Positions 7,363 through 18,539 of a stretch of 32,427 bases of DNA are shown here, piece after piece. The stretch is taken from NCBI GenBank assembly GCA_001512865.1, contig LFSY01000121.1:14343-46769 (forward strand). Direction: 5' to 3'. Source of the DNA: Rikenellaceae bacterium DTU002 (GTDB taxonomy: Bacteria > Bacteroidota > Bacteroidia > Bacteroidales > UBA932). Numbering within the stretch: the first letter of the stretch is position 1; each line of letters begins with the position of its first letter. Both the position numbers and the translations under genes were made by a program. Below the pieces are notes generated by a model that saw only the letters and a program-made list of their open reading frames with translations, was not told the DNA's origin and did no database searches.

Positions 7363-7470
7363 GCCCGGTATACACCCACGCTCTTTATTTATACCGATTG
7401 CTGCAGCTCCGGGCGCATGCAAATCGCGTTTTCATTTTGCAGAGTAAAAAGAAATGGATATTTTTATTTT

Positions 7471-8439
7471 ATGAAAAAGTATTCCCTGACGGCAGTCCCC
7501 GTGTTACTGCCATTTATTCTTCTCATTTCAGGGTGCAGCATCCCTGTGCTTCCTGAGCTCGAAACAGCTGCGGTATCCCAAACGGGCACCACGTCACTTA
7601 CCTGTGGCGGCACGGTTCTCACCGACGGGGGTGCGCCTGTGTTGGCCCGTGGAGTCTGCTGGAGTACCGCTACCGGTCCTTCCGTTGACCTGCCCACCAA
7701 AACAAACAACGGTTCCGGGACAGGATCCTTTACCAGTTCAGTTACGGGTCTTGCCCCCAACACCACCTACTATATCAGGGCCTATGCCTCCAACGAGGCA
7801 GGCACTGCTTACGGAAACCAGATCACTGCCACCACCCTGCCCGCCAATGCATCGCTCACCACCTCACAGGCAAGCCAGATCACTTCCTTTGGAGCCATTA
7901 GCGGAGGAAACATTGCCGATGACGGAGGCTCTGCCGTCACGCTGCGCGGCGTCTGCTGGAGCACAGCTACCGGACCCACTGCAGATCTGCCCTCCCGGAC
8001 ACAGGACGGCACGGGAAAAGGAGCCTTTGTCAGTACCCTGACAGGCCTGTCTTCCAGGACCACTTATTATGTAAGGGCTTATGCCACCAACGCTGCCGGG
8101 ACCGCATACGGACAACAGATCATGGTGGAGACGCCGGCCAGCGTTTCGCTATCGGCAACCACCCTGACTGTCCTGGCTGCTGAAAGCCAGAACAATGACA
8201 TTGTGATCAACTCTTACGGTCCCTGGACGGCCCAGGTAACAGGGAACACTCCCTGGATCACCCTTATCTCAATAACGGGAGAGGCGGGATCTTCCACATT
8301 CTTTTTCGCGATGGCTGAAAACGACACGAGGGCTGACCGCACGGGGATCATCAGGATCACATGCCAGGACATGTCTGCCGATATCACCGTGAACCAGCTT
8401 CGTGCAGGAGGCTATATGGACGACGGAGATCTCTTTTAA
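7471..8439 (+). CDS. Lipoprotein with two Fn3-like repeats and a C-terminal BACON domain
   Basis: MKKYSLTAVPVLLPFILLISGC lipobox; two copies of 'RGVCWSTATGP..DLP.(K/R)T..G.G.G.F.S..TGL...TTYY(I/V)RAYA.N.AGTAYG.QI'; then 'LTVLAAESQNNDIVINSYGPWTAQVTGNTPWITL...RTGIIRITCQDMSADITVNQ' (BACON). Confidence 0.85.
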   Translation: MKKYSLTAVPVLLPFILLISGCSIPVLPELETAAVSQTGTTSLTCGGTVLTDGGAPVLARGVCWSTATGPSVDLPTKTNNGSGTGSFTSSVTGLAPNTTYYIRAYASNEAGTAYGNQITATTLPANASLTTSQASQITSFGAISGGNIADDGGSAVTLRGVCWSTATGPTADLPSRTQDGTGKGAFVSTLTGLSSRTTYYVRAYATNAAGTAYGQQIMVETPASVSLSATTLTVLAAESQNNDIVINSYGPWTAQVTGNTPWITLISITGEAGSSTFFFAMAENDTRADRTGIIRITCQDMSADITVNQLRAGGYMDDGDLF

Positions 8440-8450
8440 TGAAGCATGCC

Positions 8451-9659
8451 ATGAAAAAGACCCTAATATGCATACTTGCGCTCCTCCTGGCAGGAGGATG
8501 CCGGCAGGAAGAAGAAAAGCAACAGGCACCATTGGAAAAGGAGACTGCAGCGCTGGCCGGTATCCTGCCATCCGGGGATCCTGCCACGCGTACCACCTTA
8601 CATGAAGACGGGTTGCTCACCACGTGGGAATCCGGGGATGCCATAGGCGTTTTCGGTAACAATGCGTCCAATGTGCGTTATACCCTCTCCTCAGGGGCAG
8701 GAACACCCTTTGGGTTGTTCAGGGGCGCGGATTCCGGATCTCCCGTCTATGCCTACTATCCTTTTACGGAGAAAGCCGGAGATTCCTATAATGCCATTAA
8801 GGGAACACTGGCCCCCGAAACAGTACAGAACGGGGAAGAGACACCCATTGGGGCTTCTGACTGGAAAGTCAGTTCCCTGATCCTGGGAAACGCAACGGAC
8901 GGGTACCGGATCCATTTCCGGGAAATCATGGCATTGCTTTCCTTTACCATAGATGCAACCGGGACCGGGCTGGAAGGAGAAACCCTCAGATCGGTGTCCT
9001 TATCCGCTGAAGGACGGAAACTGGCGGGAAACTTTACGATTGATCTCTCAAAAGCCGATGCCACTCCCCTTTTCGATGCCCAGGCATCTTCCGGGGTGGT
9101 GTTGAAAATGGAACACCGCCCGGTGCTTGCAGGCGGGAAACCTCTTGTCTGTCACATGTTCGTCAATGCCGACGTGCCCGGGGGAACGCCCCTGGAGATC
9201 GTATTGGAGACCAACCGGTCTGTGTCTACAACCAGGGTAACTGCTGCAAAACCAATGAAAGCCGGACACCGTTATCACATCCCGCTTATCCTGGAGGAGA
9301 TCTCCGATAAAACGACAGTCACGGACATTGCCCTCAAATACGACTACCAAACATTCGGGATCTACCAGAAAGGAGACACGCTCCTCTCATACAGGGCTTT
9401 CAACGATCAGTGGAGCAGACTGGATTACCCCGATCATTATACATTCCGTATACAGAATAACGAACAGAAATTTGTAGTATCCGTGGAAGGCATTCCCCAG
9501 AATCCGCAAACAGGTGTTTTCTATAACATCAGTGTCTCGGTGTATGGAACGGACAGGATCGCTGCGGGCACCAGAAATGTTTGTGCAGTCAGGCTTCAGG
9601 ACCATCTGCTGGTATTGTACGACTACGAAAACGAAATTAGTTATGTTGTTTACAATTAA
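8451..9659 (+). CDS. Fimbrillin-family (Mfa-like) lipoprotein
   Basis: MKKTLICILALLLAGGC lipobox; 'TRTTLHEDGLLTTWESGDAIGVFGNNASN' and 'PVYAYYPFTEKAGD' typical of fimbrillin-like proteins. Alternative ATG at 8439 overlapping the previous stop. Confidence 0.8.
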   Translation: MKKTLICILALLLAGGCRQEEEKQQAPLEKETAALAGILPSGDPATRTTLHEDGLLTTWESGDAIGVFGNNASNVRYTLSSGAGTPFGLFRGADSGSPVYAYYPFTEKAGDSYNAIKGTLAPETVQNGEETPIGASDWKVSSLILGNATDGYRIHFREIMALLSFTIDATGTGLEGETLRSVSLSAEGRKLAGNFTIDLSKADATPLFDAQASSGVVLKMEHRPVLAGGKPLVCHMFVNADVPGGTPLEIVLETNRSVSTTRVTAAKPMKAGHRYHIPLILEEISDKTTVTDIALKYDYQTFGIYQKGDTLLSYRAFNDQWSRLDYPDHYTFRIQNNEQKFVVSVEGIPQNPQTGVFYNISVSVYGTDRIAAGTRNVCAVRLQDHLLVLYDYENEISYVVYN

Positions 9660-9665
9660 TGTGCT

Positions 9666-12404
9666 ATGAAAAGAATACTACCTGCAAAATTCCTGTTCCT
9701 GTTCCTGTTTGCCTGCTGTTTTCATAGTGCTTACGCAGTAAAGGCATACCCCGATCCCATACAGGTTATACAGCCCGACGGAACGACCCTTACCATCCGC
9801 AAACACGGGGATGAATTCCTCAACTGGACCACCTGTGGCGACCGGCTGGTCAAACAAAAACCTGACGGTTTTTATTACCTGGCGGAATTCCTTTCCGACG
9901 GAAACGTTCAGGCTACCGATATACGTGTAGATCCCGGATTGATCCGGCAAAGCACCACGCAGGTCTTTCCCCCGGCCGCAGCCATCCACAGGGCGCGGAT
10001 CTTACGGGAAGAGTTTTCCCGTATATTTGCCGCCCGCTCAGACGTTGCCCGGCTGCGACCCGACATTTTTCCCGCCGTAAAAGGCGCATCTGCGTCCATT
10101 GCCCTGGGACAGAAAAAATTCCTGGTCATCCTGGCACAGTTCAGCGATCTGGAGTTTGTCTCGGCAACTGCACAGGAAGATTTTTTCAACCTGCTGAACC
10201 AGGAAGGATACGCTGCCAACGGCGGGACAGGCTCTGTCAGGGAATATTTCCGCCAAAATGCTTCGGGAGCTTTTGACCCCGTGTTTGATGTTGTCGGACC
10301 GGTGACGCTCTCCCGCCCGGTTTCATATTACGGGGCGAATAACGATGAGGGAAAGAATATGTACGAGCGATCCAGAGAAATGGTGGCAGAAGCCGTAAGA
10401 TCTGCAGATTATTATCTGGGAACCGATTTCTCGCCCTACGACAATGACGGGGACGGTTATATTGACAATGTTTTTGTGTATTTTGCCGGACATAACGAGG
10501 CTGAAGGAGGCGGAGATCATACCATATGGCCGCATGCCTGGTCTACCTATGATCAGAGTACAACCGTAGACGGTGTCACAACGGGATCCTACGCGTGTAC
10601 CTCTGAATTGCGGGGTGCCTCGGGCACGGCGATGGCCGGCATCGGGACCTATTGCCATGAATTCGGGCATGTTCTGGGGTTACCCGATTTTTACGACACC
10701 GATGGTAAAGAAAACGGCGAAGCCAGGGGTTTGGGCAGATTTTCACTTATGTCGGGAGGCAATTACAACAACGCGGGAAGAACCCCGCCTTACCTTACGA
10801 CCGTTGAAAGGATCCTTCTGGAGTGGAGGGCCGATGAAATTGAGGAAATCACGACATCGGGAGATTATCGCCTGGACCCTGTATCGGGGAACAGTGCCTA
10901 TGGTGTGGCCACGGCCAATCCCGGAGAATTTTTTCTTTTTGAATACAGAAAAAAAGAGGGATGGGACAATTCGCTGCCCAATTCCGGGTTACTCATTTAT
11001 CATATAGACATGTCCGAAAACCTGGTGGGCGGGACATCTGCGGCTGACAGATGGCGTTTCTGGGACGGCATCAACACATACGCATCCCACCAGTGCTATG
11101 ACCTGGTGGAAGCGGTATATCCCGAATCGGCCATTCAGTTTGACAACCAGATCCCATTCCCCGGATCAGCCAAGAACACCTCTTTTACGGAAACTTCTTC
11201 CCCGGCTGCGAAAGATCATGCGGGAAAACCCATTGGTGTAAACCTCACAGGTATTTCCAACGAAACTGCCTATGCCGCTTTTACCGTCACCATGAGCAAT
11301 GCCCTGGTGATCACGGGGACGGTTGCAGATGTTGAAGGTAATCCGCTGGAAGGGGTAACGGTGTCGCTCACATATGAAGAAACCCCGCAAAACACCTTCG
11401 AAAAATCATCCATTACAGGGTCCGGGCCACTGGTCGCACGCTTCCGTAAGACGGGGACAGACAATCCTGCCGCCACCGCAACTACAGGTCAGGATGGCAA
11501 ATATAGCTTCAGCACAGAAAGCCGCCAGGGTCTGTATACGGTCATGGCCTCCAAAGAAGGCTACCATCCTGCCTTCAGGGAGGTGGATGCTTCCCGGACC
11601 GGAACAGTCACAGAAGACATCACCCTGACACCCGTTGAGGAACCCGGTAACGGAATCCTGAAAAAACACGGTCCCTGGGAAGGACACGGGGTCGGATACG
11701 GATCCCCGGGAGGCACCATTTTCGGGGCGGTGGGATTTTCGGCCCAGGAAATGGCCCCGTTCGCAGGCAGTGTGGTAAGCACCCTTTCTTTCCTGGTCGA
11801 TGGATCAAGTGCCGATGAAGTGGGCGTCTTCATCTGTTATGACAACGAATGCGCCTTTTCAGGAGTACTGAGTAATCCTTCTTTTGGGGTCATGATGCAG
11901 GTCGACCTCTCTCCGTTCCTGATCGTTCTTCCTGCCGGCAGGGATGTCAAATTCGGTTATTACGTGAACGGCAGTGATTACGGCTGGCCCCTGGCTACCG
12001 ATCCGGGACCCATGGCACCTATGGGAGGTTATGCAGGCAGTTCCCTGGAAGAGCTCACCACCGACTGGAAGGAAAAACACGGGATAGACATGAACATTCA
12101 AATTTCGGCAACCGTAACGGCACAGGACAACATGCTCTTTTCATTGGGCTATTATATGATCCGATATGAGCAAAAAGAGTACTTACCCGGAGACACCTTT
12201 ACATTGCAGCTGAACGATTCCGCCAGTGTCCAGGGTGTTGAAAAACCTTTGGGCGTGCAATGGTTTTTCAATGACCTCCCACATGCTGCAGGTGATGTTA
12301 TCACACTAACTGCCGGAGACCATACTGCAAAGGCAGTACTGACATTTAACGGTTATACACAAACCATAGTACAGGAAATCCATGTTGATCCCGCGCAGCA
12401 ATGA
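9666..12404 (+). CDS. M6 family metalloprotease (immune inhibitor A-like) with carboxypeptidase-regulatory-like domain
   Basis: Signal peptide; 'GTYCHEFGHVLGLPDFYDTDG' (HExxH...P.FYD) and 'YDNDGDGYIDNVFVYFAGHNEAEGGGDHTIWPHAW'; 'ITGTVADVEGNPLEGVTVSL...GKYSFSTESRQGLYTVMASKEGYHP' CarboxypepD_reg-like. Confidence 0.92.
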   Translation: MKRILPAKFLFLFLFACCFHSAYAVKAYPDPIQVIQPDGTTLTIRKHGDEFLNWTTCGDRLVKQKPDGFYYLAEFLSDGNVQATDIRVDPGLIRQSTTQVFPPAAAIHRARILREEFSRIFAARSDVARLRPDIFPAVKGASASIALGQKKFLVILAQFSDLEFVSATAQEDFFNLLNQEGYAANGGTGSVREYFRQNASGAFDPVFDVVGPVTLSRPVSYYGANNDEGKNMYERSREMVAEAVRSADYYLGTDFSPYDNDGDGYIDNVFVYFAGHNEAEGGGDHTIWPHAWSTYDQSTTVDGVTTGSYACTSELRGASGTAMAGIGTYCHEFGHVLGLPDFYDTDGKENGEARGLGRFSLMSGGNYNNAGRTPPYLTTVERILLEWRADEIEEITTSGDYRLDPVSGNSAYGVATANPGEFFLFEYRKKEGWDNSLPNSGLLIYHIDMSENLVGGTSAADRWRFWDGINTYASHQCYDLVEAVYPESAIQFDNQIPFPGSAKNTSFTETSSPAAKDHAGKPIGVNLTGISNETAYAAFTVTMSNALVITGTVADVEGNPLEGVTVSLTYEETPQNTFEKSSITGSGPLVARFRKTGTDNPAATATTGQDGKYSFSTESRQGLYTVMASKEGYHPAFREVDASRTGTVTEDITLTPVEEPGNGILKKHGPWEGHGVGYGSPGGTIFGAVGFSAQEMAPFAGSVVSTLSFLVDGSSADEVGVFICYDNECAFSGVLSNPSFGVMMQVDLSPFLIVLPAGRDVKFGYYVNGSDYGWPLATDPGPMAPMGGYAGSSLEELTTDWKEKHGIDMNIQISATVTAQDNMLFSLGYYMIRYEQKEYLPGDTFTLQLNDSASVQGVEKPLGVQWFFNDLPHAAGDVITLTAGDHTAKAVLTFNGYTQTIVQEIHVDPAQQ

Positions 12405-13693
12405 GCTTCCCCGGACTATTGAAAAAATGGCTGCTGGACTGGCTGCTCGATCCTGATGACAAGCTGACTTTCAGAAAATACGAAGGGCAAAAGATCGATT
12501 GGGAGGGTGTTGACAACCTGTACATCCATATCCCCTTTTGCAGAAACAAGTGTCCTTATTGTCCCTATTACAAAGAAATATTCCAGGATCAGAAAGCCTG
12601 GTTCTTTGGAGAATCCCTGTTGCATGAAATTGACCTGCATGCCCCCTGGCTACAGGGCCGGGCCATGCAGTCTCTGTACATAGGGGGAGGAACGCCCACA
12701 TTAATGACAGATCTGCTGACCAGGGCCATTGGGAGGCTTCGCGAACTGTGTTCCGTTGAAAAGATTGCTATTGAAACCTCTCCTTCAGATATCAGCAACG
12801 AAGTCCTGGTTTCGCTGCATAATATGGGTTGTAATATGATCAGCCTGGGAGTACAGGATTTTCAGCAGAAGTATCTTACTTTCCTGGGCCGGGATTATAC
12901 AACAGAAAAGACGCTTGATGTCATTGATAAAATCGGTCTTTCGTATTACGACACCTTTAACCTTGACCTGATCTTTGCCTATCCCGGACAAACCCTCAAA
13001 GAGCTTGATCTTACCCTGCGGATGGCAATGGACACGCCTGCGCACCAATTGACTTTTTATCCCCTCTTTACTTTTCCCTACAGCACCGTCGGCCGTTTCA
13101 TAAACCTGAAGCAGGTCAAAATGCCGGACAGCGAGATCCGGAGACGTATGTATTATCATATATACGATACGTTACTGGCTAACGGATACGAGCAGGTATC
13201 GGTCTGGGGATTCCTGAAAGGGGGAAAAGGAAAATATTCTTCCGTAACACGGGAACAGTACCTGGGACTGGGCCCCTCTGCAGGCACCTATACTGGAAAG
13301 CAGTTCCTCTTCAACACATTCAATATGGAAAAATACATCTCGGGACCTGTCCAGGATCAGTTACCCTATGAGTATATCATGGATGTTACCCCCCATATGG
13401 AACGTCTTTTCTGGGTTTACTGGCGCCTCTATGAAACAGTAATCCCCCGGGAGGTATACAGGCAGCGGTTCGATCGTGATTTCACGGAGGATTTCAAATC
13501 CCTGCTGTACGGTGCAGAGATGATGAAATATATGGTCGTAAAGGATCCTCACCTGTTGCTTACCAAAAAGGGGATACACCGGATCCACCTGCTACAGAAT
13601 CATTTTGCCCTGGATTTCATCAATCGTATTTGGACTGCGTGTACACAGGATCCCTCTCCGGACAAGGTGCCTTTGTCTGCCTGGCATAACTGA
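12401..13693 (+). CDS. Radical SAM enzyme of the coproporphyrinogen III oxidase-like (HemN/HemW) family
   Basis: 'LYIHIPFCRNKCPYCPYY' CxxxCxxC; 'LYIGGGTPTLM'; 'MISLGVQDFQQKYLTFLGRDYT'; 'FNLDLIFAYPGQTLKELD'; ATGA overlap with preceding stop. Confidence 0.88.
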   Translation: MSFPGLLKKWLLDWLLDPDDKLTFRKYEGQKIDWEGVDNLYIHIPFCRNKCPYCPYYKEIFQDQKAWFFGESLLHEIDLHAPWLQGRAMQSLYIGGGTPTLMTDLLTRAIGRLRELCSVEKIAIETSPSDISNEVLVSLHNMGCNMISLGVQDFQQKYLTFLGRDYTTEKTLDVIDKIGLSYYDTFNLDLIFAYPGQTLKELDLTLRMAMDTPAHQLTFYPLFTFPYSTVGRFINLKQVKMPDSEIRRRMYYHIYDTLLANGYEQVSVWGFLKGGKGKYSSVTREQYLGLGPSAGTYTGKQFLFNTFNMEKYISGPVQDQLPYEYIMDVTPHMERLFWVYWRLYETVIPREVYRQRFDRDFTEDFKSLLYGAEMMKYMVVKDPHLLLTKKGIHRIHLLQNHFALDFINRIWTACTQDPSPDKVPLSAWHN

Positions 13694-14505
13694 TGCTGAA
13701 AGATTTTTTTTATTTTTACCATCCAATGAAGGATTTTACAAAAAAATACGGTCCCTGGGCATTGGTGGCAGGGGCATCGGAGGGACTTGGAGAAGCTTTT
13801 GCCGTTGAAGCCGCACGCAGGGGGCTAAACGTCCTGATAGCAGCCAGGCGGCTGGATAAATTGCAGGATCTGGCTGCTTCCCTGGAAGGCCGGTTTGGCG
13901 TGGAAGTAAAATACCGCCAGGCCGATCTAGCCGATCCTGCCCAGATCAGGGCTCTTTTTCTGCATCAGGAGCTCACCTTCGGTCTTGTGATCTACAATGC
14001 GGCATACGCACCCATCGGCTGGTTTACCGACCTGGCACCGGAAAACCTGGAAAAGATCGTTGCCGTGAACGCACAAGGGCCGTTGCTTGTGGCAAAACTC
14101 GCCTCGGACCGGATGAAAGAACTCAAAAAGGGAGGGATCGTGCTGATGTCTTCGCTGGCCGGGACACAGGGAAGTCCCAAAATTGCCACCTACGCCGCCA
14201 CCAAGGCATTTAACATGATTCTGGCGGAAGGTCTTTGGAAAGAACTCAAACCTCTCGGCATAGATGTGCTGGCATCGTGTGCCGGGGCTATCCTGACTCC
14301 GGGTTACGGGAACACCAAACATCAGAAACCGGCTCCGGGCTCCATGACTCCGCAACAGGTCGCCTCCTTCACCCTGGACCGCCTGGGACGTGGACCTGTA
14401 GTAGTTCCCGGAACGACCAACAAACTGGCAAGGCTCTTGATGGGTCGCCTGCTCCCCCGGCGCCTGGCCATAGCCCTTATGCATCAACAAACCAAAAATT
14501 TATAG
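13693..14505 (+). CDS. Short-chain dehydrogenase/reductase (SDR)
   Basis: 'WALVAGASEGLGEAFAVEAARRGLNVLIAARR' TGxxxGxG-like motif, 'YNAAYA', 'LMSSLAG', 'YAATK'; TGATG overlap with previous stop (start could alternatively be ATG 13726). Confidence 0.92.
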   Translation: MLKDFFYFYHPMKDFTKKYGPWALVAGASEGLGEAFAVEAARRGLNVLIAARRLDKLQDLAASLEGRFGVEVKYRQADLADPAQIRALFLHQELTFGLVIYNAAYAPIGWFTDLAPENLEKIVAVNAQGPLLVAKLASDRMKELKKGGIVLMSSLAGTQGSPKIATYAATKAFNMILAEGLWKELKPLGIDVLASCAGAILTPGYGNTKHQKPAPGSMTPQQVASFTLDRLGRGPVVVPGTTNKLARLLMGRLLPRRLAIALMHQQTKNL

Positions 14506-14507
14506 AG

Positions 14508-15584
14508 ATGATCAAAATTATCGGTTTTTTCACCCCCTGGTTTCTTTATGCCATCATTACATTGCTGCATTATTTTCTTCCCGCACGCCGGATGGAAGGA
14601 TATGTAAGGGATGCCCGTACCGGGAAACTGCTACGTTACCGGTTGAACGGCCGCCTTGTACTTATCGTCTGCATTGTCTTGTGGTTTGTCCTGGGCTACC
14701 TGGGATGGGTTCCCTACAACTGGCTGTATACGGTACGCTGGTACAGCGTGGCCGGGGCCTGTACCTTCGGTCTGATTTATTCATTGCTGTCGGTATTGCC
14801 TTTTGAGCCTACGGGCAGGGGACTGCCGGCGGACCTGTTCCTGGGACGCCTGGAGAATCCGCAATACATCAAAAGCCGGATAGATGCCAAAATGTGGCTC
14901 TATATGATCGGGGCCATCATGCTTCAATTGAACGTCCTGGCTTTTGTGGCACACCGTGTGATGGTTTTTGGCGATGTCCCCCGGGGCATATGGCTCTGTG
15001 CCGTCATGCTCTCCTATTTTGTTTGGGACTATATGACCTTCGAAAAGGTACACCTGTACACCTACGACCTCTTTGCCGAAAGGCTGGGTTTCAAGCTGGG
15101 TTTCGGATGCCTTACCTTTTACCCTTATTTCTATCCCATTGCCCTGTGGACCGCCGTGGAGCTTCCCGATCCCGGGACGTCGCTTTGGCTGCTGGTGCTG
15201 TTCGCCATCGTATTTTTCGCCGGATGGAGCCTGGCCCGGGGTGCCAACATGCAGAAATATTTTTTCAAAACCGAGCCGGAAAGGGTCTTTCTGGGGATCA
15301 GTCCAAAAACCATCAGCGACGGCAACCATACCTTACTGGTAAACGGATTCTGGGGTCTGAGCCGCCACATCAACTACCTGGGAGAAGTTCTTATGGGCAT
15401 AGGTATTGCCCTGAGTGTGGGCTACCCGGGCATATTCTGGGTGTGGCTGTACCCGCTCTATTACATCCTGCTTCTTGGAACACGGCAAATGGACGACGAC
15501 AAACGCTGCCGGGCAAAATACGGGAATTTGTGGGATGATTACAAAAAAGAAGTCAGGTACCGGATCATTCCCGGTCTTTATTAA
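14508..15584 (+). CDS. ERG4/ERG24 (sterol C14/C24 reductase-like) family membrane protein
   Basis: Polytopic; 'DLFLGRLENPQYIKSRIDAKMWLYM', 'NMQKYFFKTEPERVF', 'LLVNGFWGLSRHINYLGEVLMGIGIAL', 'RCRAKYGNLWDDYKKEVRYRIIPGLY' match the conserved C-terminal half of the sterol reductase family. Confidence 0.82.
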   Translation: MIKIIGFFTPWFLYAIITLLHYFLPARRMEGYVRDARTGKLLRYRLNGRLVLIVCIVLWFVLGYLGWVPYNWLYTVRWYSVAGACTFGLIYSLLSVLPFEPTGRGLPADLFLGRLENPQYIKSRIDAKMWLYMIGAIMLQLNVLAFVAHRVMVFGDVPRGIWLCAVMLSYFVWDYMTFEKVHLYTYDLFAERLGFKLGFGCLTFYPYFYPIALWTAVELPDPGTSLWLLVLFAIVFFAGWSLARGANMQKYFFKTEPERVFLGISPKTISDGNHTLLVNGFWGLSRHINYLGEVLMGIGIALSVGYPGIFWVWLYPLYYILLLGTRQMDDDKRCRAKYGNLWDDYKKEVRYRIIPGLY

Positions 15585-15611: not shown

Positions 15612-16118
15612 ATGGAAAACAGAACCGTTTTATTTGGCGGCAAGCCCGTCACACTGGCCGGAAAGGAGATCCGGACCGGTGACAAGGCTCCCGATTTCAC
15701 GGCAGTGAACTCCGGATTGAAAGATGTGAGACTTTCAGATTACGCGGGAAAGATTGTCATTATTGCCGTCTACCCATCCATTGATACCGGCGTCTGCCAG
15801 GCACAAAACCGTCGTTTCAATGCTGAAGCGACAAAAATGGAAGATATTGTGGTATTATCTGTTTCATGTGACCTGCCCTTTGCCCAAAGACGTTTTTGCG
15901 CCGCCGAAGGGCTGGACAAGGTGATCACCCTGTCGGACCACCGCCACGTGGACTTCGGGACCAAATACGGCTTTTTAATGGAAGAACTGCGTCTTTTGGC
16001 CAGAGGTACCGTAGTCGTTGACAAGGAAGGCTTTGTCCGTTACGTGGAATACGTACCCGAAATCACGCAGGAACCCCTGTACGAAGCCGCACTGGAAGTG
16101 GTGAAACAATTGCAATAA
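15612..16118 (+). CDS. tpx: Thiol peroxidase (atypical 2-Cys peroxiredoxin)
   Basis: 'LFGGKPVTLAGKEIRTGDKAPDF', peroxidatic 'SIDTGVCQAQNRRFN', resolving 'RFCAAEGL', 'RGTVVVDKEGFVRYVEYVPEITQEPLYEAAL'. Confidence 0.95.
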   Translation: MENRTVLFGGKPVTLAGKEIRTGDKAPDFTAVNSGLKDVRLSDYAGKIVIIAVYPSIDTGVCQAQNRRFNAEATKMEDIVVLSVSCDLPFAQRRFCAAEGLDKVITLSDHRHVDFGTKYGFLMEELRLLARGTVVVDKEGFVRYVEYVPEITQEPLYEAALEVVKQLQ

Positions 16119-16122
16119 GACT

Positions 16123-17523
16123 ATGAAACCATCAGCCAGATCCCCGGCTGTGGCCGGCAGGTTTTACGCTGCCACCCCGGGAAAATTGCAAAAGGAACTG
16201 GAACAATTGTTCCAACAGGCAAAGCCTCCGCAATGTGATAACGTAAGGGCCATTATCAGTCCGCATGCCGGATATATTTTTTCCGGAAGCGTGGCGGCTT
16301 CTGCCTTCAACCAGGTAGATGCCGGTAAAAAGTACGAAAGGATCTTTGTTATTGGGTCTTCACACCAGGTCAGGCTCAAAGGGGCCGCAGTGTATACCGT
16401 CGGGGATTACCGGACCCCTTTGGGAGATATAAACGTCGATACGCGATTTGCCGAACAGCTGGTATGTGCCTGTCCCGATCTTTTTGTCCCGGACAGCGAC
16501 GCCCACAACGTTGAACACAGCCTGGAAGTACAATTGCCTTTTTTACAACACGTTCTGGGAACGGATCTCACGATCGTTCCTATAGTTATCGGCACTTCAG
16601 AGGCCCTTACCTGCAAAAAGATCGCTAAAGCGCTTGCCCCGTACTTTACACCGGAAAACCTTTTTGTCATAAGTACGGACTTTTCGCATTATCCCCAGTA
16701 TGCAGATGCCGTCCAAGTGGACACGGTGACCAAGAACGCCATCCTGTCAAACGATCCGGAAATATTGCTTAAGACCCTGCAAGGCAATGCCGGCGGGCAC
16801 ATTCCGGGTCTTTCCACGAGTCTTTGCGGGTGGACCTCGGTACTTACGCTGCTGTACATGACCTCAGGAAAAGAGGCCCTGAAGTACATTGCCATTGATT
16901 ATAAGAACTCTGGTGATGCCGTGGAATTCAATGACAAAGAGCAGGTTGTCGGCTATTGGGCCATTGCCGTGTGCGATACGGAATTCCAGTTTTCCGGCAG
17001 GGAAAGATCCCTCCTGAGGGAATTGGCACGACGATCGGTGGAATCTGTTGTACTTACAAAAAAGCGCCTGCTCCTGCATCCCGGGGAATTCCCCCCGGCA
17101 CTTCACCAACACTGCGGGGCTTTTGTTACCCTGCGTCAAAATCAAAAACTGAGGGGTTGCATTGGCCGGATGGAAGCTGATGTTCCCCTTTTTGAACTGG
17201 TCAGCGATATGGCCGCTGCGGCTGCTCTTTACGATGACAGATTCCCCCCTGTGGACAAAAATGATCTGAAGGACCTGGATATGGAAATTACCGTCCTGTC
17301 TCCTCTAACCCTGATACGGGACATCCATCAGATTGAACTTGGAAAACATGGCATCCTGGTAAAAAGCGGCGGACGTTCGGGGGTGTTTCTTCCCCAGGTG
17401 GCCACCGAAACCGGATGGAGCCTGGAAGAATTCCTTGGCCATTGCTCCCGGGACAAAGCAGGCCTGGGATGGGAAGGCTGGAAATCAGCACGCATCTATA
17501 CTTTTACCGGACAGGTTTTTTAA
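16123..17523 (+). CDS. Fused AmmeMemoRadiSam proteins B and A (MEMO1-like + AMMECR1 domains)
   Basis: N-terminus 'RSPAVAGRFYAATPGKLQKELEQLF', 'ISPHAGYIFSGSVAASAF', 'NVEHSLEVQLPFLQ', 'VISTDFSHYPQYADA' (MEMO); C-terminus 'FVTLRQNQKLRGCIGRMEADVPLFELVSDMAAAAALYDDRFPPV...GVFLPQVATETGWSLEEFLGHCSRDKAGL' (AMMECR1). Confidence 0.95.
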   Translation: MKPSARSPAVAGRFYAATPGKLQKELEQLFQQAKPPQCDNVRAIISPHAGYIFSGSVAASAFNQVDAGKKYERIFVIGSSHQVRLKGAAVYTVGDYRTPLGDINVDTRFAEQLVCACPDLFVPDSDAHNVEHSLEVQLPFLQHVLGTDLTIVPIVIGTSEALTCKKIAKALAPYFTPENLFVISTDFSHYPQYADAVQVDTVTKNAILSNDPEILLKTLQGNAGGHIPGLSTSLCGWTSVLTLLYMTSGKEALKYIAIDYKNSGDAVEFNDKEQVVGYWAIAVCDTEFQFSGRERSLLRELARRSVESVVLTKKRLLLHPGEFPPALHQHCGAFVTLRQNQKLRGCIGRMEADVPLFELVSDMAAAAALYDDRFPPVDKNDLKDLDMEITVLSPLTLIRDIHQIELGKHGILVKSGGRSGVFLPQVATETGWSLEEFLGHCSRDKAGLGWEGWKSARIYTFTGQVF

Positions 17524-18539
17524 AGACCCCACACACCCGGGATCTCTGCGCCGCAACTGGCGCAGGTTCCGTTGAGCAGATTCTTTGCCGTAACGGCATA
17601 ATGCGATCGTTCCACCACCACCCTTCCGCATGCGGGACAATGGGTGTTGCCGTCGGGATCTCCCGGGACATTGCCCGTGTAAACGAAATGCAATCCGATC
17701 TTCATGGCTGTCTGTCTGGCCCGCGTAAGATGTTCAACTGGTGTGGGAGGCAGGTCCTGCAATTTAAAACAGGGAAAGAAACGGCTTATGTGCAGCGGAG
17801 CCGTCTCAAAGCCGTTGTTAATCAGCCAACGGCACATAGACACAAAATAAGAGGCGTCATCTGTCATGTCCGGAATGACCAGGTGGGTAATCTCGGTCCA
17901 GACCCCTGCCTGCCGTAAGGCAAGCAACGTGTCGAGTACCGGTTGCAGCTTTCCCCCGGCCACACGCCTGTAAAGGCTTTCGTCAAAAGTCTTTAGATCA
18001 ATATTGGCTGCATCCAGATACGGCAACAGGGCCGCCAGGGGTTCAGGGTCGATATACCCGTTGGACACCATAACGGTCTTCAGTCCATTTGCATGTGCAA
18101 GCACTGCAATATCATACATATACTCGTAGAAAACCGTGGGTTCGGTATATGTAAAAGCGATGGAAGGTATACCGTTCCGGAGGGCCGTACCGACTACCTG
18201 CCCGGGAGACATTTCATAATGTTCCGCTGAAGAGGGAGATACCTGTGAAATGGTCCGGTTCTGACAATTGAGGCAATGAAAATTACATCCGGCCGTGGCA
18301 ATGGAGAGTATATCCGTCCCCGGTAAAAAATGATATACGGGCTTCTTTTCCACAGGATCCACCGCAACGGAACAGGGATTGCCGTAAGCCACGGTGTACA
18401 ACACCCCCTCCCGGTTGGTCCTTGTACGGCACAATCCGCTCATTCCCTTCCTGACCAGACAGTGGTGCGGACACAGAAGACATGTGACGGAACCGTCTGC
18501 TGCCGCAACCCAGAATTTTCCCTGTATATTGTGCAACAT
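17520..18539 (-). CDS. amrS: AmmeMemoRadiSam system radical SAM enzyme
   Basis: 'CLLCPHHCLVRKGMSGLCRTR', 'GCNFHCLNCQNRTISQ' radical SAM cluster, 'YTEPTVFYEYMYDIA', 'NIDLKTFDESLYRRVAGG', C-terminal 'HCPACGRVVVERSHYAV' and 'CASCGAEIPGVW'. Confidence 0.94.
   Translation of the reverse strand: MLHNIQGKFWVAAADGSVTCLLCPHHCLVRKGMSGLCRTRTNREGVLYTVAYGNPCSVAVDPVEKKPVYHFLPGTDILSIATAGCNFHCLNCQNRTISQVSPSSAEHYEMSPGQVVGTALRNGIPSIAFTYTEPTVFYEYMYDIAVLAHANGLKTVMVSNGYIDPEPLAALLPYLDAANIDLKTFDESLYRRVAGGKLQPVLDTLLALRQAGVWTEITHLVIPDMTDDASYFVSMCRWLINNGFETAPLHISRFFPCFKLQDLPPTPVEHLTRARQTAMKIGLHFVYTGNVPGDPDGNTHCPACGRVVVERSHYAVTAKNLLNGTCASCGAEIPGVWGL

Follow-up and report, generated by a model that had tools for sequence, protein, structure and literature searches.

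A Two-Gene Cassette of an SDR and a Divergent ERG4/ERG24-Fold Reductase That May Act on Exogenous Sterol-Like Lipids

An SDR and a membrane reductase of the ERG4/ERG24 fold, encoded side by side in the window (the whole 32,427-nucleotide stretch of Rikenellaceae bacterium DTU002 DNA that was analyzed), almost certainly constitute one functional unit, and the two genes make up a cassette that is horizontally spread and easily lost (Table 1). We lean toward a reading in which the SDR and the reductase, the latter saturating a C=C bond at the expense of NADPH, act consecutively on a sterol-like lipid of external origin, perhaps by way of a ketone that activates the double bond.

Table 1. Positions of the cassette genes and of the adjoining features in the window
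Feature	Position	Strand	Remarks
Radical SAM (rSAM) ORF, HemN/HemW-like	12401-13693	+	430 aa; adjoins the cassette, judged to lie outside it
SDR ORF as first read	13693-14505	+	270 aa
SDR, classical (alcohol/ketone oxidoreductase), cassette gene 1	13726-14505	+	Likely start ATG 13726, from relatives
Reductase, membrane C=C reductase of ERG4/ERG24 fold (probable activity), divergent clade, cassette gene 2	14508-15584	+	358 aa; PF01222, 4quv
SDR stop/reductase start junction	14503-14510	+	2-nt gap in the window; mostly 4-nt overlap in relatives
Thiol peroxidase (Tpx), flanking the cassette site on the right, outside the cassette	15612-16118	+	NCBIfam NF001808, over cut-off

An earlier note on this DNA had described three consecutive genes, for an rSAM protein, an SDR and a reductase, as a translationally coupled operon. 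The ORFs lie where the note had placed them, the junctions read as it had reported (an ATGA shared by the M6 stop and the rSAM start at 12401-12404, a shared TGATG at 13691-13695 between rSAM and SDR, and the gap before the reductase, whose ATG sits within a longer TTG-started frame), the reductase motifs NMQKYFF, GFWGLSRHINYLGE and KYG..W..Y...VRYRIIPGLY are present, and Pfam returns the same families (Radical_SAM PF04055; adh_short PF00106, E = 3e-34, 118 bits; ERG4_ERG24 PF01222). Because the SDRs of relatives begin at the position of Met12 of the first-read SDR (e.g., L016 477, L018 1610 and L020 881 align from residue 12), the real SDR start is probably the downstream ATG in Table 1, ∼32 nt after rSAM, and the TGATG "coupling" is thus probably accidental. 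It is the junction between SDR and reductase that is conserved; the two genes overlap there by 4 nt in at least 19 relatives.

The pairing of a membrane reductase with a ketone/alcohol SDR, also pointed out in the note, turned out to be deeply conserved: an SDR or SDR remnant adjoins the reductase in 51 of 54 evaluable relatives, either upstream, mostly with an ATGA overlap, or, in one Bacteroidota clade, downstream and convergent, and the SDR and reductase trees have their main groups in common. The cassette is accessory, because in a 150-genome sample of the family the reductase is found in only 6 genomes. An SDR with at least 40% identity is present in 5 of these 6 carriers and in 0 of the 144 other genomes (one 31% paralogue was found besides), giving a Fisher p of 1e-8 to 6e-8 with kinship ignored. 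Clustering of 707 neighbor ORFs yielded no third gene recurring beside the pair, and Pfam and NCBIfam scans of the flanking proteins found no third conserved gene; AmmeMemoRadiSam genes near the window pair, seemingly common with a Treponema locus (L043), occur there in no other lineage. In a few relatives (L021, L029, L035, L015, L069 and G078), the reductase is accompanied by a remnant SDR or by none, and it may be functional alone in relatives that lack a full SDR. Among the relatives, which include a termite Treponema, Formosa maritima retains just an SDR remnant and Bizionia arctica has no SDR, in contrast to the culturable carrier Lutimonas halocynthiae.

The first cassette protein has the motifs of a classical SDR (the Gly motif AGASEGLG, NAA, SSLAG and YAATK, i.e., S-YxxxK), with equivalents in relatives, and an ARR that follows the second strand points to NADP(H) as its probable cofactor. 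Its nearest PDB chain in a sequence search is 5fyd/5gt9, which we take to be the Collinsella 7beta-hydroxysteroid dehydrogenase; yet the corresponding NCBIfam model (NF050024) is only its second match, with 102 bits where the curated cut-off is 300, and its top match, mycolate_SDR, reaches 122 bits against 380, so that we reject both equivalog assignments.

That the second cassette protein belongs to the ERG4/ERG24 family is borne out by profile, sequence and fold. It scores 150 bits against PF01222 (cut-off 27), the alignment covering profile positions 75-432 (i.e., without the N-terminal part of the profile), and a PDB sequence search matched two delta-14 sterol reductases only (4quv, E = 6e-33). 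Foldseek with an AF2 model (pLDDT 88.4) likewise singled out 4quv (E = 2e-15, TM 0.79/0.74, 27% identity over the fold alignment) as the one PDB fold to match significantly, the next different match having an E of 0.25. DUF1295 lies just over its cut-off (23.7 versus 20.4 bits) for a C-terminal stretch only, and ICMT stays below (14.4 versus 24 bits); the PF01222 score and the 4quv fold speak against ICMT, DUF1295 or NnrU as the best assignment. We consider it very likely that the protein is a C=C reductase.

Within this family, the window-type reductases form a clade of their own (support 97/93, and 100/100 with two intermediate sequences added), which a long and supported branch sets apart from C14-like and DHCR7-like reductases and which lies outside the known functional subfamily clades (C14, C24, delta-7) in a tree that has no eukaryotic C24 (ERG4) references. 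The closest structural reference is MaSR1, the delta-14 sterol reductase of Methylotuvimicrobium alcaliphilum (PDB 4QUV; ERG24/LBR/TM7SF2 group), with which the window protein has in common the fold, the Pfam family and seven NADPH-site residues (K319, W352, H357, N359, R395, D399 and Y407 in MaSR1), all invariant in the 53 clade members; N359 and R395 are needed for NADPH binding in LBR (PMC4951196). Unlike MaSR1, it lacks the N-terminal 75 profile positions, is paired with an SDR and resides in a host in which no triterpene cyclase was detected.

The most telling difference concerns Tyr241, which together with Asp363 is the predicted catalytic pair of MaSR1 (PMC12489058). This position, occupied by Phe171 in the window, is Phe in 53/53 clade members and Tyr in 17/17 other members. 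The proposed sterol C14/C24-type reductase stands as far as family and fold are concerned, but its identity as a standard C14/C24 enzyme is doubtful, judging from this clade-wide loss of the predicted catalytic Tyr. It should be noted that the catalytic role of Tyr241 stems from modelling and docking. The acid partner at 363 is retained as Glu, a change without diagnostic value because Glu is also found in most other members. His182, Tyr186, Lys196, Cys201, Tyr205 and Glu293 are invariant in the clade, and at four of these positions (His182, Tyr186, Lys196 and Tyr205) most other members differ. The reductases are under strong purifying selection (dN/dS ∼0.07). A Phe at the catalytic Tyr position could also signal a different reaction or a non-sterol substrate.

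We detected no triterpene cyclase in the bacterium's own genome, and none was detectable in 46 of 50 carriers; synthesis of sterols or hopanoids de novo can thus be set aside as the substrate source, and a sterol substrate would be taken up. Neither a sterol gene nor a transporter recurs beside the pair. A sterol- or steroid-like substrate appears reasonably probable, and we infer that the two enzymes act consecutively on one lipid. This lipid would be a polycyclic isoprenoid soluble in membranes, with a sterol or steroid from the surroundings as the likeliest case. The SDR would interconvert hydroxyl and ketone, most likely at C-3, and the membrane enzyme would transfer hydride from NADPH, bound on the cytosolic side, onto a C=C bond of the lipid. 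Since the clade lacks the Tyr to which protonation of an isolated double bond is ascribed, the bond might be activated by conjugation to the SDR-made ketone, a route that we put forward tentatively, or else be protonated by His182, Tyr186, Lys196, Cys201, Tyr205 or Glu293. Reduction of the saturated ketone back to the alcohol would be the last step, for a net saturation of the stenol-to-stanol type, by which anaerobes might get rid of electrons, or render eukaryotic lipids harmless or make use of them.

By analogy, the pair may work like IsmA and SpiR of the anaerobe Eubacterium coprostanoligenes, with which gut cholesterol reduction proceeds through a hydroxysteroid dehydrogenase step and then the saturation of a C=C bond; the available portion of that report describes no ERG4/ERG24-fold enzyme in the gut system and gives NAD(H) as the cofactor of SpiR (PMC13079761), and the sterol role of the window SDR is putative. 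The bacterial 8,14-sterol reductase (8,14-Bsr) also reduces a sterol C=C bond but has an unrelated fold, of the NTF2 superfamily (PMC13277303).

The substrate could also be one of the bacterium's own non-sterol lipids (a carotenoid, a polyprenol, the side chain of a quinone or a beta-keto lipid), an alternative to which we give a minor share of the probability. The top NCBIfam match of the SDR, below cut-off as it is, points in this direction, as do the spread of the carriers over several phyla without common sterol genes and the lack of any sterol gene nearby. However, core quinone or lipid synthesis would hardly be the task of an accessory cassette, a sister genome lacks the pair although the site is otherwise intact, and all characterized ERG4/ERG24 members act, to our knowledge, on sterols. 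It is unlikely, too, that the protein is an ordinary sterol C14, C24 or delta-7 reductase that came from eukaryotes or from bacteria making sterols and works as an orphan on host or dietary sterols, with the SDR as a helping 3-keto-sterol reductase. Family and fold would agree with this, and there are precedents in bacteria that make no sterols, namely Coxiella Stmp1 (CBU1206) and the DHCR7-like reductases of Legionella drancourtii and relatives (PMC8787468, PMC2667531), one such orphan being active in yeast (PMC8787468). Against it stand the long branch to the C14-like and DHCR7-like enzymes, the Phe where all 17 other members have Tyr, and the missing N-terminal part of the profile; moreover, where the DHCR7-like set has Tyr313, Arg319 and His359, the window clade has Arg, Lys and Asn. 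We regard as very improbable a protein that lost catalysis with its Tyr and now serves as a sensor or carrier, binding sterols or sterol-like lipids: the loss of the predicted proton donor throughout the clade is what such a protein would have in its favor, but the invariant NADPH site and the strong purifying selection argue against it, and the linkage to an oxidoreductase would be left unexplained.

The three-gene pathway of the earlier note, with the rSAM protein as a partner in the reduction of a lipid, sterol, bile acid, tetrapyrrole or quinone, is largely refuted and retains next to no probability. The rSAM gene adjoins the pair on the same strand in three genomes of one genus, and it is found beside the pair at no locus outside this genus, so that the conserved unit is the pair, not the trio. 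In a genome of the same genus (G072), M6, rSAM and Tpx follow one another in unchanged order, with Tpx a short gap behind rSAM and both SDR and reductase absent (i.e., an empty site), and in another (L014), SDR and reductase are both damaged and rSAM is intact. These two loci rule out the three-gene operon and identify rSAM as genomic backbone outside the cassette; the gap left by the likely SDR start points the same way. The rSAM protein itself has the CX3CX2C motif, gives no HemN_C Pfam match and stays below the curated NCBIfam cut-offs for HemN, HemW and HutW (best 167 versus 355 bits; HemW 148 versus 205 bits). The tetrapyrrole and quinone readings depended on rSAM and on a core role and find no support, the cassette being accessory.

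Our preferred reading, consecutive action of the SDR and the reductase on an exogenous sterol-like lipid, can be extended to a bolder and rather unlikely proposal: the pair would be an enzyme system for a microbial process known for long, in which sterols are turned into stanols in anoxic sediments, in peat, in digesters and in the guts of insects. The SDR would make and later remove a 3-ketone, and an ERG-fold reductase devoid of the proton-donating Tyr would saturate the ketone-activated double bond. Conversion of sterols to stanols in the environment runs via stanones (PMC5217961), and our literature search for the enzymes of stanol formation in sediments returned biomarker papers only. Were this proposal true, the ERG4/ERG24 fold would gain a new chemistry. 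Should the pair reduce sterols, genes could be named for the saturation of sterols in environments beyond the gut, the products of which, stanols, are in use as fecal and sediment markers, and a eukaryote-type sterol reductase fold would be seen to work without its supposed acid Tyr. If the substrate is another lipid, the pair would broaden a family so far known to us from sterol chemistry only. Conservation of the pair, a single diagnostic residue and an empty site render the question amenable to testing.

The arrangement described in the earlier note, with a radical SAM gene (rSAM), an SDR gene and an ERG4/ERG24-type membrane reductase gene in succession, is borne out by the open reading frames and Pfam searches. 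The reductase scores 150 bits against the ERG4_ERG24 profile (PF01222; cut-off 27); for the other families that the note had named, DUF1295 reaches 23.7 bits over a C-terminal stretch and ICMT stays under its cut-off. A PDB sequence search with the reductase returned two delta-14 sterol reductases (4quv, 9l5r), and an AlphaFold model built from 45 window-clade sequences (mean pLDDT 88.4, pTM 0.89) has 4quv as its sole significant Foldseek match (E 2e-15, TM 0.79; next E 0.25).

Features of the window and of loci of relatives or reference proteins
Feature	Location	Strand	Pfam or remark
Surface-type genes (fn3/BACON protein, fimbrillin-like protein, M6 protease)	window 7417-12404		precede rSAM; order kept within genus
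M6 protease	window 9666-12404	same as the next four	
rSAM	window 12401-13693	same	Radical_SAM
SDR	window 13693 or, more likely, 13726-14505	same	adh_short
Membrane reductase	window 14508-15584	same	ERG4_ERG24, 150 bits
Thiol peroxidase (Tpx)	window 15612-16118	same	
AmmeMemoRadiSam system	window 16123-18539		Memo/AMMECR1 fusion protein and a radical SAM gene convergent with it; conserved in genus
Decaying cassette, same genus	L014:7205-8966		
SDR remnant	L015:3480-3726		precedes intact reductase gene
SDR remnant	L069:7792-7995		precedes intact reductase gene
AmmeMemoRadiSam-kind radical SAM gene, Treponema	L043:6169-7074		immediately before SDR; single case so far
Gene cluster, plasmid p2 of the cyanobacterium Planktothrix agardhii	L145, NZ_LR882940.1, ~36556-48294		unannotated C14-like ERG24 homologue, P450, three Rieske proteins, FAD-dependent oxidoreductase, SDR, emopamil-binding-family protein; looks like a sterol-synthesis gene cluster

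The window-type reductases are a distinct subfamily of ERG4/ERG24. Their intact members score ~127-167 bits against PF01222, versus ~210-412 for other full-length members, and in a tree whose reference members come from Bacteroidota and Gammaproteobacteria genomes and one Planktothrix plasmid, without a eukaryotic ERG4-type C24(28) reductase, the window clade is set apart (support 97/93) from the groups that we ourselves label C14-like and DHCR7-like by residue pattern and similarity to MaSR1, the delta-14 sterol reductase of Methylotuvimicrobium alcaliphilum. MaSR1 entered the alignment as residues 75-427 from the PDB search, with which its genome locus (L133, 99% identical) agrees. With two intermediate Bacteroidota proteins, the window clade forms a group (100/100) whose branch is 1.76 changes per site long. 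These two, L097 and L098 of genomes G446 and G470, lie between C14 types and the window clade. They retain the catalytic Tyr, carry Gly for Asn359 at the NADPH site and have no adjoining SDR; each genome also holds a C14-like copy.

All window-clade proteins (53/53) keep the residues surrounding the NADPH site, MaSR1 N359 and R395 among them; the relatives were chosen by similarity to the window protein, and invariance holds within that clade. Mutating the equivalents of N359 and R395 in LBR lowers NADPH binding (PMC4951196). In C14 reductases, Tyr241 and Asp363 are the pair predicted to act in catalysis, the role of Tyr coming from modelling and docking (PMC12489058). The window clade, like most other members, has Glu at 363, and position 241, which is not part of the peptide patterns that retrieved the relatives, is Phe in all 53 window-clade proteins and Tyr in 15/15 references and both intermediates. 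Nearby in sequence, His182, Tyr186, Lys196 and Tyr205 (window numbering) are clade-invariant and Cys201 nearly so. dN/dS is ~0.07 between the window and L013, a pair whose synonymous sites are nearly saturated; for more closely related pairs it is 0.07-0.12. The unchanged NADPH-site residues, the low dN/dS and the Phe at 241 thus point to a reductase that is maintained, by all signs binds nucleotide, and has relocated its acid or needs none now.

Scanning 84,980 genomes yielded 58 reductase relatives in records named Bacteroidota, Spirochaetota, Bacillota, Actinomycetota, Acidobacteriota, Pseudomonadota and Myxococcota, many of them MAGs, so that individual taxon labels may be wrong. Once four loci cut at a contig end are excluded, the reductase is adjoined in 51/54 loci by an SDR, whole or as a remnant, from a single family: upstream on the same strand in 28 (damaged L014 counted), where a 4-nt overlap of the two genes is usual; as an upstream remnant in two (L015, L069), indicating that the SDR can go first; and downstream and convergent in 21, with 1-2 ORFs intervening in two of these (L045, L054). 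No SDR lies beside the reductase in the other three (L021, L029, L035). The convergent arrangement is limited to one Bacteroidota clade on the reductase tree, and the SDR tree, made by a quick method, shows the same split into two sets with the same inner groups. Among 150 sampled genomes of the window's family, six hold the reductase and five of these the SDR, a 31% SDR paralogue occurring in one other genome (Fisher 1e-8 to 6e-8, without kinship correction). Clustering of neighbour ORFs around the reductase loci gave no third partner gene, the flanking genes being unrelated. These data support a conserved, mobile two-gene cassette of an SDR and an ERG-fold reductase that has lost the predicted catalytic Tyr.

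The radical SAM gene is a backbone gene outside this cassette. G072, a genome of the same genus, has the same order (CTP-transferase-family protein, fn3/BACON protein, fimbrillin-like protein, M6, rSAM, Tpx), lacks SDR and reductase, and leaves only ~100 nt between rSAM and Tpx. At L014 the SDR has a broken reading frame and ~29 residues are missing in frame from the reductase, while the adjacent rSAM and M6 genes read through intact; the damage could partly be assembly error but is confined to the two cassette genes. True rSAM orthologues (60-69%) occur, within the sampled family, in the window's genus only, and rSAM is absent from all reductase loci outside that genus. It reaches none of the HemN, HemW and HutW equivalog cut-offs. 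The three-gene pathway proposed earlier is therefore unsupported.

As to substrate, a lipid of the bacterium's own is possible, and an endogenous sterol or hopanoid is unlikely, since no squalene-hopene or oxidosqualene cyclase was found in its own genome (84% complete) or in 46/50 carriers. The SDR has all the motifs of a classical SDR, and the PDB chain closest to it is a 7beta-HSDH. Sterol-to-stanol conversion in the environment is microbial and proceeds via stanones (PMC5217961), and the gut route begins with a hydroxysteroid dehydrogenase and also requires a C=C reductase (PMC13079761). The SDR-reductase pair matches these two kinds of activity, and we infer a sterol-type substrate class. 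The SDR would make a ketone that polarises a conjugated double bond, which the membrane enzyme would then reduce; such ketone activation could explain why the Tyr is dispensable.
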